DNA of 64,000 bases, from the NCBI RefSeq assembly GCF_023015765.1, contig NZ_JALKAL010000006.1, positions 62,001 through 126,000 of the forward strand. Direction: 5' to 3'. Shown here piece by piece: positions 13,592 to 41,669 of the stretch; position 1 is the first letter of the stretch, and the number at the start of each line of letters is the position of its first letter. This DNA is from Ornithinimicrobium sp. F0845 (GTDB lineage Bacteria; Actinomycetota; Actinomycetes; Actinomycetales; Dermatophilaceae). Under the pieces are notes generated by a model that worked only from the letters and a program-made list of their open reading frames with translations, ran no database searches and was not told where the DNA came from. Made by a program: the position numbers and the translations under genes.

Positions 13592-14950
13592 ATGAAGCTC
13601 AGCACCATGACCCGGGCCGCGGTAGTGACGACTGTCGCCGCGACCCTGCTGGCCGGCTGCGGCCAAGGGAGCACGACGGACGACCCGACCGACGACGCCA
13701 CGGACGACGCCGCGGCCGACGAGGGCGAGGCTGACGACGGCGAGGCGACCGACGGGGCCGAGGAGACCGACGCCCCGGCCGAGACCGGCGGCGAGGAGGC
13801 CTCCGGCGAGACGATCACCCTGTGGCTGGCCGGTGAGACCGACACCCCGGTCGAGCTCGAGGAGTGGCTGGTCACCGCCTTCAACGAGGAGACCGGTGCC
13901 ACGCTCGAGGTGCAGCGGATCCCCTGGGGAGAGCTGCTGGAGCGCGCCAACCAGGCCCTCCCCGACCCCGACAACACGCCTGACGTGATCGAGATGGGCA
14001 ACACCCAGGTTCCGACATACACCAGTGTCGGTGCGTTCGAGGACCTGTCCGGCCTGCTCGGCGAGCTGGGCGACATCGGCCCCGAGGGCTTCATCGAGGC
14101 CGGCACCTATGAGGACACCGTCTACGCGGTGCCCTACTACTGGGGCTCGCGCTACATCTTCTTCGACAAGGCCGCCTTCAGCGACGCGGGCCTGGAGGTG
14201 CCCACCACGCTCGAGGAGTTCTCCACCGCGGCGATCGCGCTGCGCGAGGCCGGCGGCGACGGCTTCTCCGGGCTCTGGCTGCCCGGGCAGGACTGGCGCA
14301 ACGGCATCAGCTGGATCTTCGCGCACGGCGGCGACATCGCCGTCAAGGAGGGTGACCAGTGGGTCGGCGCGCTGTCCTCGCCCGAGAGCGTGGCCGGCCT
14401 GACCCAGTGGCAGGAGCTGTACGCCGGCGCCTCCACCGCCCCGCAGGACGGCAAGGACGCCGAGGCCTGGGTGCCGTTCAACAACGGCGAGGCCGCGATG
14501 TTCATGGCGCCGAGCTGGGCGCGCTGGAGCGTGGAGGAGACCAGGGCCGAGGACCTCGGCGCGTTCGCCCTCCCCGGTGTGGACGGCGGCGTCGCCCCCG
14601 TGTTCGCCGGCGGGTCCAACATCGCCATCTCGGCCCAGTCGCAGCACAAGGAGCTGGCCGCCGACCTGATGCGGCTGATCTTCAGCGACGAGTACCAGAC
14701 GATGCTCGCCGAGAACGGCCTCGGCCCGGCCAACCCCGAGTTCACCGCGCTGATGGGTGACGACGAGTTCGCGCAGGCCGCGATCTCCGCCGCCGAGAAC
14801 GCCAAGCTGACCCCGGCCTCCTCGGAGTGGGCCGCGGTCGAGACCGCCTCGGTCATGGAGGAGTTCTTCGGCCGCATCGCCGGCGGCGAGGACGTCGCCA
14901 CGGTCGCCGCGGAGGTCGACACCCAGCTGGCGGACATGCTCAACGGCTGA
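13592..14950 (+). CDS. Sugar ABC transporter solute-binding lipoprotein (family 1; DasA/NgcE-like role)
   Basis: 452 residues. Signal peptide with lipobox L-L-A-G-C (Cys23), then an extremely acidic linker of Asp/Glu/Thr/Ala repeats to about residue 70, as in many actinobacterial lipoproteins. The family-1 binding fold follows: TITLWLAGETDTPVELEEWL, NTPDVIEMGNTQVPTYTS, YAVPYYWGSRYIFFDKAAF, FNNGEAAMFMAPSWA and FAGGSNIAISAQSQHKELA. It would capture the substrate outside the membrane and deliver it to the two permeases encoded next. Catabolic neighbours (hexosaminidase, sugar kinase, NagB) suggest GlcNAc, chitobiose or a muropeptide-derived amino sugar. A strong SD (GAGAGAGG) precedes the ATG. 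No ATPase gene lies in the operon; a shared MsiK-like ATPase elsewhere is probable. Confidence 0.88.
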   Translation: MKLSTMTRAAVVTTVAATLLAGCGQGSTTDDPTDDATDDAAADEGEADDGEATDGAEETDAPAETGGEEASGETITLWLAGETDTPVELEEWLVTAFNEETGATLEVQRIPWGELLERANQALPDPDNTPDVIEMGNTQVPTYTSVGAFEDLSGLLGELGDIGPEGFIEAGTYEDTVYAVPYYWGSRYIFFDKAAFSDAGLEVPTTLEEFSTAAIALREAGGDGFSGLWLPGQDWRNGISWIFAHGGDIAVKEGDQWVGALSSPESVAGLTQWQELYAGASTAPQDGKDAEAWVPFNNGEAAMFMAPSWARWSVEETRAEDLGAFALPGVDGGVAPVFAGGSNIAISAQSQHKELAADLMRLIFSDEYQTMLAENGLGPANPEFTALMGDDEFAQAAISAAENAKLTPASSEWAAVETASVMEEFFGRIAGGEDVATVAAEVDTQLADMLNG

Positions 14951-15020: not shown

Positions 15021-15116
15021 GTCTACAAAACCTCCCCAAGAATGCGGGTGGGGTCTACAAAACCTCCCCAAGAATGCGTGGGAGGCGTACAGAACCTCCC
15101 TCAAAATGGGTTGACG
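15021..15116 (+). repeat. Three tandem copies of a 32-bp unit (ACAAAACCTCCCCAAGAATG element)
   Basis: Units start at 15021, 15053 and 15085, exactly 32 bases apart. The first two share GTCTACAAAACCTCCCC and AAGAATGCG; the third is degenerate (GCGTACAGAACCTCCCT, AAAATGGG). The array fills the SBP-permease gap just upstream of the permease SD. The same unit with the same 32-bp period occurs inverted inside the tmsA-like gene at 40.5 kb. There are no spacers, so it is not CRISPR. CCTCCCC could pair with SD-like GGGAGG in the same RNA. Confidence 0.9.
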
Positions 15117-15129
15117 AGAAGGGTGCAGG

Positions 15130-16092
15130 ATGACGGACCAGGAGACGGCGCGGGTGCCCCTGACGCCGACGCCGGTGACCGCGCCCGACCGGCGTCGCCG
15201 GCGCCGGCGCGGCGGGCTCGGTGGCTACTGGCTGCTGCTACCGGCGATCGCGGTGCTGCTGATCGGCGAGGGCTATCCGCTGGTGCGGCAGGTCATCATG
15301 TCCTTCCAGGAGTTCGGCCGTGCCCAGCAGTTCGGGGCGCCGCCGGAGTGGATTGGCCTGGACAACTACCGCGCGCTGTTCACGGACTCGCAGATGTGGG
15401 GCGTGGTCGTGCGCTCCCTGGTGTTCTGCGCGGTCAACGTCGCCCTGACCATGGTCATCGGCACGACCTTCGCGCTGATCATGCTCCGGGCACCGCGCGT
15501 CCCGCGGGTTGTGCTGCAGGTGAGCATGCTGCTCTGCTGGGCGATGCCGGTGATCGCGGCGATGACCGCCTGGCAGTGGTTGTTCGACAGCCGCTACGGC
15601 CTGATCAACTGGACGCTGACCAACCTGGGCCTGGGTGACTTCACCCGGCACAACTGGCTGATCGAGCCGCTGTCCTTCTACCTCGTCGCCACCGTGATCG
15701 TGGTCTGGATGAGCGTGCCGTTCGTGGCGTTCACCGCCTACGCCGCGCTCACCCAGGTGCCCGAGGACGCACTGGAGGCCGGGCAGATCGACGGCGCCAA
15801 CGCCTGGCAGCGCTGGCGCTTCATCATCTACCCCTCGATCCGCCCGGCCCTGACCATCGTGCTGATGCTGCAGATCGTGTGGGACCTGCGGGTCTTCGCC
15901 CAGATCCACTACCTGCAGGGGGTGGGCGGGGTCCCCAGCGAGACCCACCTGCTCGGCACCTACATCTACACCCTCGGCGTCGGACAGAGCGAGTACGGCA
16001 TGGCCTCGGCCTTCGCCCTCTTCGTGCTCGTGCTCACGCTGGTCCTCACCGCGCGCTACGTGCACGCCCTCCTGAAGGCGGAGACGGTATGA
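15130..16092 (+). CDS. Sugar ABC transporter permease, MalF-type
   Basis: 320 residues with six predicted membrane helices, starting after a basic R-R-R-R-R-G segment (GYWLLLPAIAVLLIGEGYPL). The EAA coupling loop is YAALTQVPEDALEAGQIDGA followed by NAWQRWRFIIYPSIRPAL, typical of carbohydrate uptake transporter-1 MalF-like subunits. An SD-like AAGGG/GCAGG lies before the ATG. It forms the channel with the next gene product and has no dedicated ATPase nearby. Its TGA overlaps the next ATG. Confidence 0.92.
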   Translation: MTDQETARVPLTPTPVTAPDRRRRRRRGGLGGYWLLLPAIAVLLIGEGYPLVRQVIMSFQEFGRAQQFGAPPEWIGLDNYRALFTDSQMWGVVVRSLVFCAVNVALTMVIGTTFALIMLRAPRVPRVVLQVSMLLCWAMPVIAAMTAWQWLFDSRYGLINWTLTNLGLGDFTRHNWLIEPLSFYLVATVIVVWMSVPFVAFTAYAALTQVPEDALEAGQIDGANAWQRWRFIIYPSIRPALTIVLMLQIVWDLRVFAQIHYLQGVGGVPSETHLLGTYIYTLGVGQSEYGMASAFALFVLVLTLVLTARYVHALLKAETV

Positions 16093-38925: not shown

Positions 38926-40233
38926 CTAGTCGCGGACCGCGGTCTCCACGTCCCAGTCGGGCCGCAGCGGGATGCCGCTCCGCCCCTCCGGCGAGGTCCG
39001 CACGCCGAGCACCTGGTGCAGCTGGATGTTGTTGCGCTCGAAGTTCACCCGCGACCCGGCCAGGTAGACGCCCCACACCCGCGCCGTCCCCAGCCCCGCC
39101 TCGGCCACACACTCGTCCCAGTGCTCGGACAGGTTCTGCCCCCAGGCGCCGGTCGTGCGGGCGTAGTGCTCGCGCAGGTTCTCCTCGTGCCGAACCTCGA
39201 ACCCGTTGTCCTCCATCACCGAGACGATGTGCCCGACGCCGGACAGCTCCCCGTCCGGGAAGGTGTAGCGGTTGGTGAACGGATCCCTCAGCAGGCCGTT
39301 GTGCCGGTTGTGGGGGTGGGTGATGCAGTGGTTGAGCAACCGCCCCTCGTCCCGCAGCCGCTCCCTCAGGAAGGTGAAGTATGCCGGGTAGTTGCGCACC
39401 CCGATGTGCTCGGTGAGCCCGATGCTCGAGACCGCGTCGAAGCCCCGCTCGGTCACGTCGCGGTAGTCGCCGTGCCGGATCTCCGCGGAGCCGGTCAGCC
39501 CCTCGCGCTCCAGCATCTCCTGCCCCCACGACGCCTGGTTGCGCGACAGGGTCACGCCGAGCGCGGTCACGCCGTAGTGCTTCACGGCGTGCCGGACCAT
39601 GCCACCCCACCCGCACCCGACGTCCAGCAGCCGCATCCCCGGGGTCAGGCCCAACTTCTGGCAGATCAGGTCGAACTTGTAGGACTGGGCCTCCTCGAGC
39701 GAGGCCTCCGCGTCGGGAAAGACCGCGCAGGTGTAGGCCATCGACGGCCCGAGCACCAGCTCGTAGAACCGGTTGGACACGTCGTAGTGGTGCGAGATCG
39801 CCTCGGCGTCGCGCGCCCGTCCGTGCCGCAGACCGTGCGCCAGACGCCGCCACGGGGCCGGGGCCTCCTGCGGCGGGAGCTCCGGCACGTGCAGCCCGGT
39901 CTCCCGGACGAACCGGGCCAGGTCGGGCAGCTCGCGCAGCGTCGGGCGGCGCGCCTGCAACCGGGTCAGGAAGTTCACCATCACCGGGTACGGGTTGCCC
40001 TCGTCCATCCCCTCGATGACCAGCTCGTCGGCCAGGTAGGCCCGCATCAGACCGATCGACCGGTGCGCGGTGAGCAGGTAGTTCAGCGCCTCCGGGCTGC
40101 GCAACCGCACCACCTGGCCGTCGGGATCGCCGCCGGTGGACCCGTCATACGCCTCCACCCGCAACCCGCTCCCCGGGCCGAAATACCGGTCGAAGGCCTC
40201 ACCGACCGTCATGCTCCCGCCGTTCCGGGTCAT
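38926..40233 (-). CDS. Cyclopropane-fatty-acyl-phospholipid synthase family methyltransferase (TmsB/UfaA-like)
   Basis: 435 residues. SAM site RLLDVGCGWGGMVRHAV (201-217); ISHHYDVSNRFYELVLGPSM and YTCAVFPDAEASLEEAQ-Y-K are the CFA-synthase acceptor motifs, with FDAVSSIGLTEHIG (conserved Glu) and NRYTFPDGELSGV further on. The enzyme methylates or methylenates oleoyl phospholipids. Directly after the FAD-oxidase-like gene, with a four-base overlap, this is the tmsB-tmsA (bfa) arrangement that makes 10-methyl branched fatty acids such as tuberculostearic acid. Which product is made cannot be read from sequence. Confidence 0.88.
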   Translation of the reverse strand: MTRNGGSMTVGEAFDRYFGPGSGLRVEAYDGSTGGDPDGQVVRLRSPEALNYLLTAHRSIGLMRAYLADELVIEGMDEGNPYPVMVNFLTRLQARRPTLRELPDLARFVRETGLHVPELPPQEAPAPWRRLAHGLRHGRARDAEAISHHYDVSNRFYELVLGPSMAYTCAVFPDAEASLEEAQSYKFDLICQKLGLTPGMRLLDVGCGWGGMVRHAVKHYGVTALGVTLSRNQASWGQEMLEREGLTGSAEIRHGDYRDVTERGFDAVSSIGLTEHIGVRNYPAYFTFLRERLRDEGRLLNHCITHPHNRHNGLLRDPFTNRYTFPDGELSGVGHIVSVMEDNGFEVRHEENLREHYARTTGAWGQNLSEHWDECVAEAGLGTARVWGVYLAGSRVNFERNNIQLHQVLGVRTSPEGRSGIPLRPDWDVETAVRD

Positions 40234-41669
40234 CGTGCGCGCACCGCCTTGTCATAGAGGGTGGGGAAGCGGCCCTGGGGGTCGTACCGCTCCTTGATCT
40301 GGTCATAGGTCTGCCCGCCGTAGAGCGCGGCGAAGGTCGCCTCGTCGTAGAACGCCTCCGAGTAGAGGCCCTTGTGCCCGCCGAGCTCGGTGACCTTCGC
40401 CTCGATCGCCCGGTTGGTGTCGCCGTGCACGTGCCCCTCGGTGATCGGCACCGCCGACCAGAAGCCCACGTTGACATAGGGCACGCCGGGCCGCATCGGA
40501 TAGAGCGGCCACGGGGTCCCCCCAATTCTTGGGGAGGTTTTGTCCGCCCCCCGCGCATTTTTGGGGAGGTTTTGTCCGCCCTCCCGCAGCTGGACCGGGC
40601 ACAGCCACACCGGCTCGATCGGCACGTGCTCCAGGAACCAGTCCAGGAACTCGGCCGTCCGGTCCAACGGGATCTCGACGTCCTGGATGACCCGCTCCTG
40701 CGCAGGCCTGCCACGCAGCCGGTCGATCCCCGCGACGATCCCGCGGCGCGCCTCCAGGTCCTGGATCCGCCAGTAGAAGTCGCTGCGCAGCCACTGCTTC
40801 GGCCACACCCGCCGCAGCGCGGGGTGCTGGGCGCCGAAGGCCCGCGAGCACCAGAACCAGTCGGTGTCCCAGCGCCACAGGTAGTCCCGGACGGTCAGCA
40901 CGTCCCGCCGCCGGTGCTGGATGGAGCGGTAGTACATCTGCTGGCCGGTGTAGTCGCTGGGCCGGTCCTGCCCCCCCACCTCGTCCGACCAGCGCCCGAG
41001 CGTCAGATAGGACTCGGTCGCGCCGAACACCACGCCGTCCAGGAAGTCGACCTCCTCACCGTCCCAGTCATGGGTGGCCATGATCAGCCCGACGGCGTCG
41101 AGCAGGTCGGGGAGGCGACCGAAGCGCACGTGCCGCAGCACGACATACGGCCGGGTGGGGGCGGTCTCGATGGTGAGTGTCAGCGCGTAGCCGAGCGAGC
41201 CGTAGCTGTTGGGGAAGGCCCGGAACAGCTCGGCGTGCTCGTTGTCCGGTGTCGCCGTGACCGCCTCACCGGTGCCGGTGAGGACCCGCAGCGCGGTGAC
41301 CGACTCGTGCGGCAGCCCCTCGCGGAAGCTGGTCGACTCGATGCCCAGACCCGTGACGGCCCCGCCGAGCGTGATGGTCTTGAGCTGGGGCACGACCAGC
41401 GGCATCTGTCCGTGCGGCAGCAGCTCGTCCACCAGCTGTTCGTATGTCGTGAGGCCGCCGACCGTGGCCGTCGCCGGCTGGTCGTGGGTCGCCTCGGTCC
41501 GGGAGATCACCCCGGTGAACGCGGACAGGTCCAGTCCGGTGGACGCCTCGGACGCGCGGGGGCGGAAGAGGTTGGAGGTCTGCTTCGCCAGTCGCACCCG
41601 ATCGCTGGCCCGGACCGTGGCCTCCGCCCGCGCGACGGCATCCTCGAGGTCCGTCTGCACTGCGGTCAT
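40230..41669 (-). CDS. FAD-binding oxidoreductase, TmsA/BfaA-like, carrying an in-frame repeat insertion
   Basis: 479 residues. The PCMH-type FAD-binding part includes LVVPQLKTITLGGAVTGLGI-E and FPNSYGSLGYALTLTIETA. The C-terminal part has IEPVWLCPVQLRE and PWPLYPMRPGVPYVNVGFW, typical of the reductase that converts the 10-methylene intermediate to the 10-methyl acyl chain. Between those two conserved pieces, residues 364-385 are encoded by two 32-bp repeat units, read as GGQNLPKNARG and ADKTSPRIGG in two different frames. Homologues I remember have a shorter, variable loop here. The reading frame is intact. The ATG at 41669 is preferred over a long non-family extension. ATGA overlap with the methyltransferase. 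Confidence 0.85.
   Translation of the reverse strand: MTAVQTDLEDAVARAEATVRASDRVRLAKQTSNLFRPRASEASTGLDLSAFTGVISRTEATHDQPATATVGGLTTYEQLVDELLPHGQMPLVVPQLKTITLGGAVTGLGIESTSFREGLPHESVTALRVLTGTGEAVTATPDNEHAELFRAFPNSYGSLGYALTLTIETAPTRPYVVLRHVRFGRLPDLLDAVGLIMATHDWDGEEVDFLDGVVFGATESYLTLGRWSDEVGGQDRPSDYTGQQMYYRSIQHRRRDVLTVRDYLWRWDTDWFWCSRAFGAQHPALRRVWPKQWLRSDFYWRIQDLEARRGIVAGIDRLRGRPAQERVIQDVEIPLDRTAEFLDWFLEHVPIEPVWLCPVQLREGGQNLPKNARGADKTSPRIGGTPWPLYPMRPGVPYVNVGFWSAVPITEGHVHGDTNRAIEAKVTELGGHKGLYSEAFYDEATFAALYGGQTYDQIKERYDPQGRFPTLYDKAVRAR
40523..40580 (-). repeat. Two tandem 32-bp units of the ACAAAACCTCCCC element inside a coding sequence
   Basis: Read on the minus strand, both units contain GGACAAAACCTCCCCAA; one continues AAATGCG and the other GAATTGGG. 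The period is 32 bases (the GGGG blocks begin at 40531 and 40563). The three-copy array at 15.0 kb has the same core and the same period in the opposite orientation. Because 32 is not a multiple of three, the copies are translated in different frames, with a couple of extra bases restoring the gene's frame. Confidence 0.9.

Follow-up and report, generated by a model that had tools for sequence, protein, structure and literature searches.

A tandem-core repeat in a tmsA-like gene is best explained as one member of a dispersed, clade-specific repeat family in Ornithinimicrobium

Small dispersed repeats near genes are known from bacteria as the REP/BIME elements with their RAYT transposases. The repeats described here are likewise small, dispersed and close to genes, but they form direct, not inverted, pairs. 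In-frame colonisation of enzymes by repeats is best known from Rickettsia. In the cited passages, the Rickettsia palindromic elements measure 105-150 bp and contain long stem-loops, and the family stands in frame in many unrelated genes and supplies a recurrent peptide (PMC10969869, PMC2229807). In Staphylococcus, the dispersed STAR loci each hold one or several short cores arranged as direct repeats; the spacers resemble one another at a given locus but differ from locus to locus, the loci expand and contract locally, and constraint is suspected. In the cited parts of that report, the loci lie between genes and lack conservation across species, and the spacers at the described locus are 40-44 bp long (PMC3532100). 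In Beggiatoaceae, the heptamer TAACTGA forms numerous small groups of two to six direct repeats, mostly just upstream of start codons, and these have been proposed as regulator-binding sites in the cited sections (PMC4679880).

The repeat studied here works like the Rickettsia palindromic elements and is built like STAR, and it fails a defining feature of each. The analogy with the Rickettsia elements, drawn at first pass, holds for the in-frame occurrence in many unrelated genes, with a recurrent peptide; it breaks down over size, palindrome and hairpin, because the repeat has direct cores over ~58 bp with inconsistent hairpin support, and its host is an actinobacterial genus, not Rickettsiales. 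The core architecture and the local likeness of spacers are those of STAR. Unlike STAR, the repeat has a period of 32, sites common to several species and species dialects in its cores, and called genes contain 24 of the 112 arrays while other arrays abut stop codons. The organisation in many small sets of direct repeats recalls TAACTGA, from which it differs by stop-codon abutment and species dialects, neither being described for TAACTGA in the cited sections (PMC4679880). A search of open-licence papers found no description of this repeat family. In-frame colonisation here concerns an actinobacterial genus in which six carrier species were found and a sister species lacks the repeat. Individual sites can be traced between species that differ in dialect, so that one can test directly whether dispersed bacterial repeats remain similar through binding-factor selection, conversion or re-insertion, and can measure how a DNA repeat affects protein sequence.

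The array in the tmsA-like gene

The window, i.e. the whole 64-kb stretch of DNA analysed, belongs to a 4.2 Mb genome, here called G000; congeneric genomes carry other G numbers. Genes were called with our own codon-usage caller. The features of the window discussed below are:

40230..41669, minus strand: host gene, encoding a tmsA-like FAD-binding protein of 479 aa (PF01565 FAD_binding_4, E 8.3e-10)
40522..40579, minus strand: two-core array in the tmsA-like gene, in sense orientation, encoding residues 364-385 with edge codons
40561..40577, minus strand: core 1 (5'-most in gene direction), GGACAAAACCTCCCCAA, exact with 0 mismatches
40529..40545, minus strand: core 2, 32 bp downstream of core 1 and in a different reading frame, 0 mismatches
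15021..15110, plus strand: three-core array between two plus-strand genes, with orthologous three-core arrays in G006 and G008
13592..14950, plus strand: gene upstream of that array (home-made gene caller), stop codon 70 bp before it
15130..16092, plus strand: gene downstream of that array, start 19 bp after it, by eye resembling an ABC sugar permease

With up to 3 mismatches, GGACAAAACCTCCCCAA has 4 sites in the 64-kb window, compared with a mean of 0.05 and a maximum of 1 in 100 shuffles. The first-pass annotation had placed two such cores 32 bp apart in the codons for residues 364-385 (GGQNLPKNARGADKTSPRIGGT), between conserved blocks of the protein family. Both cores are exact and the protein coordinates are right, with the conserved WLCPVxLR and WPLYPM flanking the insert. 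As was also proposed, the 32-bp period is not a multiple of three and core 2 is read in a different frame. The suggestion that the insertion had been trimmed to fit is unneeded: the two-core array is 58 bp long, and several arrays occupy 20 codons. The same unit and period had been seen at 15.0 kb, and three units indeed lie there at 32-bp steps throughout, with core sites at 15023 and 15055 (plus strand; 2 mismatches each to GGACAAAACCTCCCCAA) and a third, weaker unit at about 15087. The gene downstream of the tmsA-like gene (window positions 38926-40233) shares 4 bp with its end (40230-40233).

The TmsA-like protein has its best named relatives in actinobacteria, including Ornithinimicrobium. 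The insert is common to G006, where it is in frame, and its DNA has diverged between G000 and G006. The corresponding loop is shorter in G015 and G013, and long and unrelated in G008 and G010. It had been argued that repeat-less homologues with an equally long and similar stretch would speak against an insertion. The length does recur, being about equal in homologues without the repeat (G008, G010, L095 and L104), but their residues are dissimilar; residues like those of the G000 protein are found only in G006, which itself carries the DNA repeat. The loop residues of the G001 and G017 proteins are the same as those of the O. pekingense and O. tianjinense proteins. An AlphaFold2 model based on 32 sequences (pTM 0.83, mean pLDDT 77.5) assigns residues 365-388, which lie between strands 354-360 and 397-408, a pLDDT below 50; the insert thus probably forms a floppy, disordered loop. 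The array would then be a tolerated passenger of the tmsA-like gene.

Anatomy and distribution of the repeat family

A search of G000 for the 15-base core with at most 1 mismatch returned 52 sites (27 plus, 25 minus), and the reversed-pattern control returned 0. The repeat is therefore not restricted to the two sites seen at first pass; such a restriction would have refuted the original proposal. Together with the window, these sites make up 33 arrays: 8 with one core, 17 with two, and 8 with three or four. The G000 loci read were the sites with at most 1 mismatch, more than 10 further model matches lying outside this sample, and those of the relatives were chosen among the better model matches; the array statistics thus describe a sample. 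In the six-genome and orthology statistics below, an array by construction holds at least two cores 29-35 bp apart, and the duplicate L265 is left out.

The cores are ~20 bp long and mostly number two to five per array: the 111 multi-core arrays have 2 cores in 77 cases, 3 in 25, 4 in 4 and 5 in 5. Of 159 core-to-core steps in six genomes, 146 measure 32 bp, within an allowed range of 29-35, and the step becomes 31 in some G010 arrays. The majority sequence of the inner unit in G000 is GCGTACAAAACCTCCCCAAGAATGCGnGGGnG, and the last core of G000 arrays ends about AATKGG. In four genomes the majority base accounts for 84-91% in cores and 60-70% in spacers. Adjacent spacers within one array have an identity of 0.83 (n=38), whereas spacers from different arrays of the same genome have 0.55 (n=2197), a pattern that growth by local duplication would produce. 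The detection matrix was built from 33 units, 31 of them from G000 and one each from G006 and G015, which inflates the similarity within G000. Consensus units of the G000 and G019/G008 types have no stop codon in six frames; the G010-type unit has stop codons in one of six.

Six of the 31 congeneric genomes carry the family according to the sequence model, with at least 96 units in G000, 84 in G019, 60 in G008, 49 in G006, 17 in G010 and 16 in G015 (all lower bounds, 150 candidates having been scored in each genome), and at E 0.1 it finds no units in the remaining 25. An exact 15-base search of 97 genomes, G000 included, gave matches only in G000, G006 and G015. The exact two-core pattern, which other dialects would escape, occurs in 4 of 186 genomes of the taxonomic family, all in this genus, and is absent from the 155 non-congeneric ones. 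The exact pair pattern had 0 matches among viral contigs, and the strict pair pattern matched 0 stretches of a genome-contig collection from which near records may be absent. In a TmsA tree, the five carriers having tmsA form one clade (100/100), and its sister is the repeat-less G013; G019, a 75% complete genome, has no tmsA match. The best explanation of the 40.5 kb feature is membership in a family of tandem-core repeats that is dispersed and clade-specific and would have spread in the ancestor of the carrier clade. Along the chromosome, the listed sites show no significant departure from evenness (KS P 0.68 for 52 sites in G010 and 0.28 for 46 in G006).

Arrays beside stop codons and inside genes

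Of the 112 arrays read, 24 fall within genes and the remaining 88 do not. Fifty arrays have a bottom-strand gene as their right neighbour, and in 31 of these (27 distinct genes) the stop codon of that gene directly adjoins the array end, at a distance of 0 or -1; the same holds for 2 of 55 top-strand left neighbours. Dispersal would at some time have copied arrays to new sites, with a polarity favouring the base after the stop codon. Eleven G000 gene ends were searched in the relatives and nine were followed, two of those in G006 only. Arrays are present by eye at or just inside the gene end in 11 of the 41 orthologous ends, and in 0 of 7 in G013. One G015 end, left out of the 11, resembles a decayed unit. 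Also left out is L279 (G010:C1:2237367-2238267), behind the stop codon of a relA-like gene, where a 31-bp tandem duplication is present in three copies. Its unit contains the gene's last codons and stop codon, and it is possibly an array being born by local duplication. At L219 and L211, two convergent genes each have their own array, back to back. A CTNA-like target-site motif at the right end was considered and rejected, as by eye it is not kept in arrays with a plus-strand right neighbour or within genes.

Eighteen of the 24 in-gene arrays are in sense orientation. Fourteen of these (8 of 12 distinct genes) share one phase and encode the peptide xNLPKNx..A.xTSPx. The original description of a dispersed small repeat in frame within an enzyme extends well beyond tmsA, to nine other Pfam-typed genes and four untyped ones. 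Besides the TmsA-like FAD-binding protein, the typed hosts are a TPP enzyme, which we take to be MenD-like, a MaoC protein, a maltokinase-GlgB fusion with the array between its two halves, a molybdopterin oxidoreductase, and GMC, Fer4 (ferredoxin-type), TetR, MauE and kinase-HutF proteins. The repeat had also been called mobile-looking. Recent mobility finds no support here, since several in-gene copies occupy the same place in more than one species.

In the TPP gene, five carriers have array-like segments of 20-23 residues and G010 has 18 unlike residues; the repeat-less G013, G002 and G004 have 12-15 residues at this site. The MaoC gene of four carriers encodes 20-29 residues at its site, array-like peptide included, compared with 3 in G002, 8 in G013 and 32 unlike residues in G004; in the carrier G000 the flank matches are 21 bp apart, so there is no array. 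The molybdopterin gene has 20-21 residues at the site in G015, G000, G008 and G010 (by eye, the likeness to arrays is weak outside G015), 13 in G006 and 10 in G002. In G006, an array (L189:1569-3629) bridges kinase-like and HutF-like domains into one frame of 686 residues; the two domains match separate frames in G000, G010 and G015, and in G008 there is an interrupting TGA. A model match at G000:C1:67993-68026 lies between two flank matches of the GMC oxidoreductase gene, and G000 may share the in-gene GMC array of G010 (L238).

Concerted change of the cores and its possible causes

Orthologous array pairs were identified by their flanks (37 pairs) and their identity was compared with that of non-orthologous arrays of the same two genomes, by resampling that treats array pairs as independent, which is not fully the case. 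In the 27 pairs other than G008-G019, orthologous and non-orthologous cores are about equally alike (head 0.63 vs 0.61, 0.15 of resamples; body 0.78 vs 0.77, 0.38 of resamples). The outer edge, defined as the 8 nt after the last core and possibly including host bases such as the stop codon, has 0.77 vs 0.50 (0 of 5000 resamples). The spacers of these pairs have a weak signal (0.56 vs 0.51, 0.042 of resamples), which leaves room for conversion or re-insertion. When all 37 pairs are taken together, orthologous core heads are slightly more alike (0.70 vs 0.67, 0.029 of resamples), an effect that comes from the close pair G008-G019 (0.89 vs 0.82, 0.022), in which spacers are strongly shared (0.76 vs 0.49). 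Matches to the G010-type pattern number 91 in G010, 44 in G006, 19 in G015 and 4 each in G000 and G008, with 0 in G019, G013, G004 and the control. The array sites are old, and their cores follow each genome's dialect and evolve in concert.

We see about an even chance that the array is a dispersed, once-mobile repeat whose cores are recognised by a putative trans-acting factor. Such a sequence-specific factor would still recognise the cores, and the sites would drift together when its preference shifts. It is probably a DNA-binding protein, because 32 bp correspond to about three helical turns. Homogeneous cores beside heterogeneous spacers argue against simple gene conversion, since the 10-bp spacers should then have been converted too, and a trans-acting factor would better explain homogeneous cores with private spacers. 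Array positions within operons and genes would be unusual for binding sites of a transcription factor and count against such a factor, as do the 8 of 33 G000 arrays with a single recognisable core, the 31-bp steps in G010 and the G000 fold-test signal given below. Only tentatively, and leaning somewhat against it, do we offer the bolder version in which a clade-specific protein or RNA recognises the phased cores and its shifts in specificity drag the sites along, including those embedded in enzymes, rewriting residues of unrelated enzymes species by species. Continued copying of a non-autonomous mobile element, by a transposase or recombinase that prefers gene 3' ends and inserts or replaces arrays, is an unlikely but serious alternative, in which the dialects would stem from separate bursts or from gene conversion by master copies. 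It would suit the one-sided exact abutment of stop codons, the presence or absence of arrays at the same gene end between species and the coexistence of several subfamilies in G006. However, spacers are not common to the arrays of one genome (0.55), in-gene positions are common to several species (the TPP and MaoC genes; tmsA in G000 and G006), and by eye the terminal inverted repeats and target-site duplication typical of a MITE were not noticed at the boundaries. Y1_Tnp (RAYT), the sole transposase family searched, has no match in the 31 congeners, the same search being positive in 5 of 14 control genomes, and a REP/RAYT system was rejected.

The abutment in one orientation, and the back-to-back arrays of convergent genes, would also fit an RNA element of 3' ends (a terminator, mRNA stabiliser or ribosome-related signal) acting in the bottom-strand sense after the stop codon. 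In spacer-permutation fold tests (16 tests, four genomes), the core with its following spacer folds better than permuted in G000 (0.003 and 0.017 for the two strands) and in one G008 test (0.037), but the other 13 are above 0.05, with nothing in G006 and G019. An RNA element appears quite improbable, given in addition that the G008 and G019 dialects have lost the T-rich tail that follows GGGGAGG, that 24 of 112 arrays are inside genes, and that an Rfam search of 16 loci gave two tRNA matches and one SRP RNA match, none on an array. A hairpin or structured RNA was dropped as the main reading because fold support is inconsistent between genomes, and an intrinsic terminator, suggested by the G000 bottom strand, because the T-run is missing in G008 and G019 and the fold test is inconsistent. 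Selection on the loop peptide itself, with the DNA repeat incidental, would explain the common phase and peptide of most sense copies. It is hardly credible for a repeat with 88 of 112 arrays outside genes and a period not divisible by three, and the TmsA loop is modelled with very low confidence and differs freely among members of the protein family.

Two variant forms were also observed. A minor subfamily, with CCACTAC replacing CCTCCCC, exists beside the main one at L015 and L035 in G000 and at several G006 and G015 sites. At L285 (G008:C54:141407-142307), an array with a period of roughly 32 bp has a quite different sequence (acacagagggaagatcgga type), and at the same gene end G000, G006 and G010 have arrays of their own dialects.
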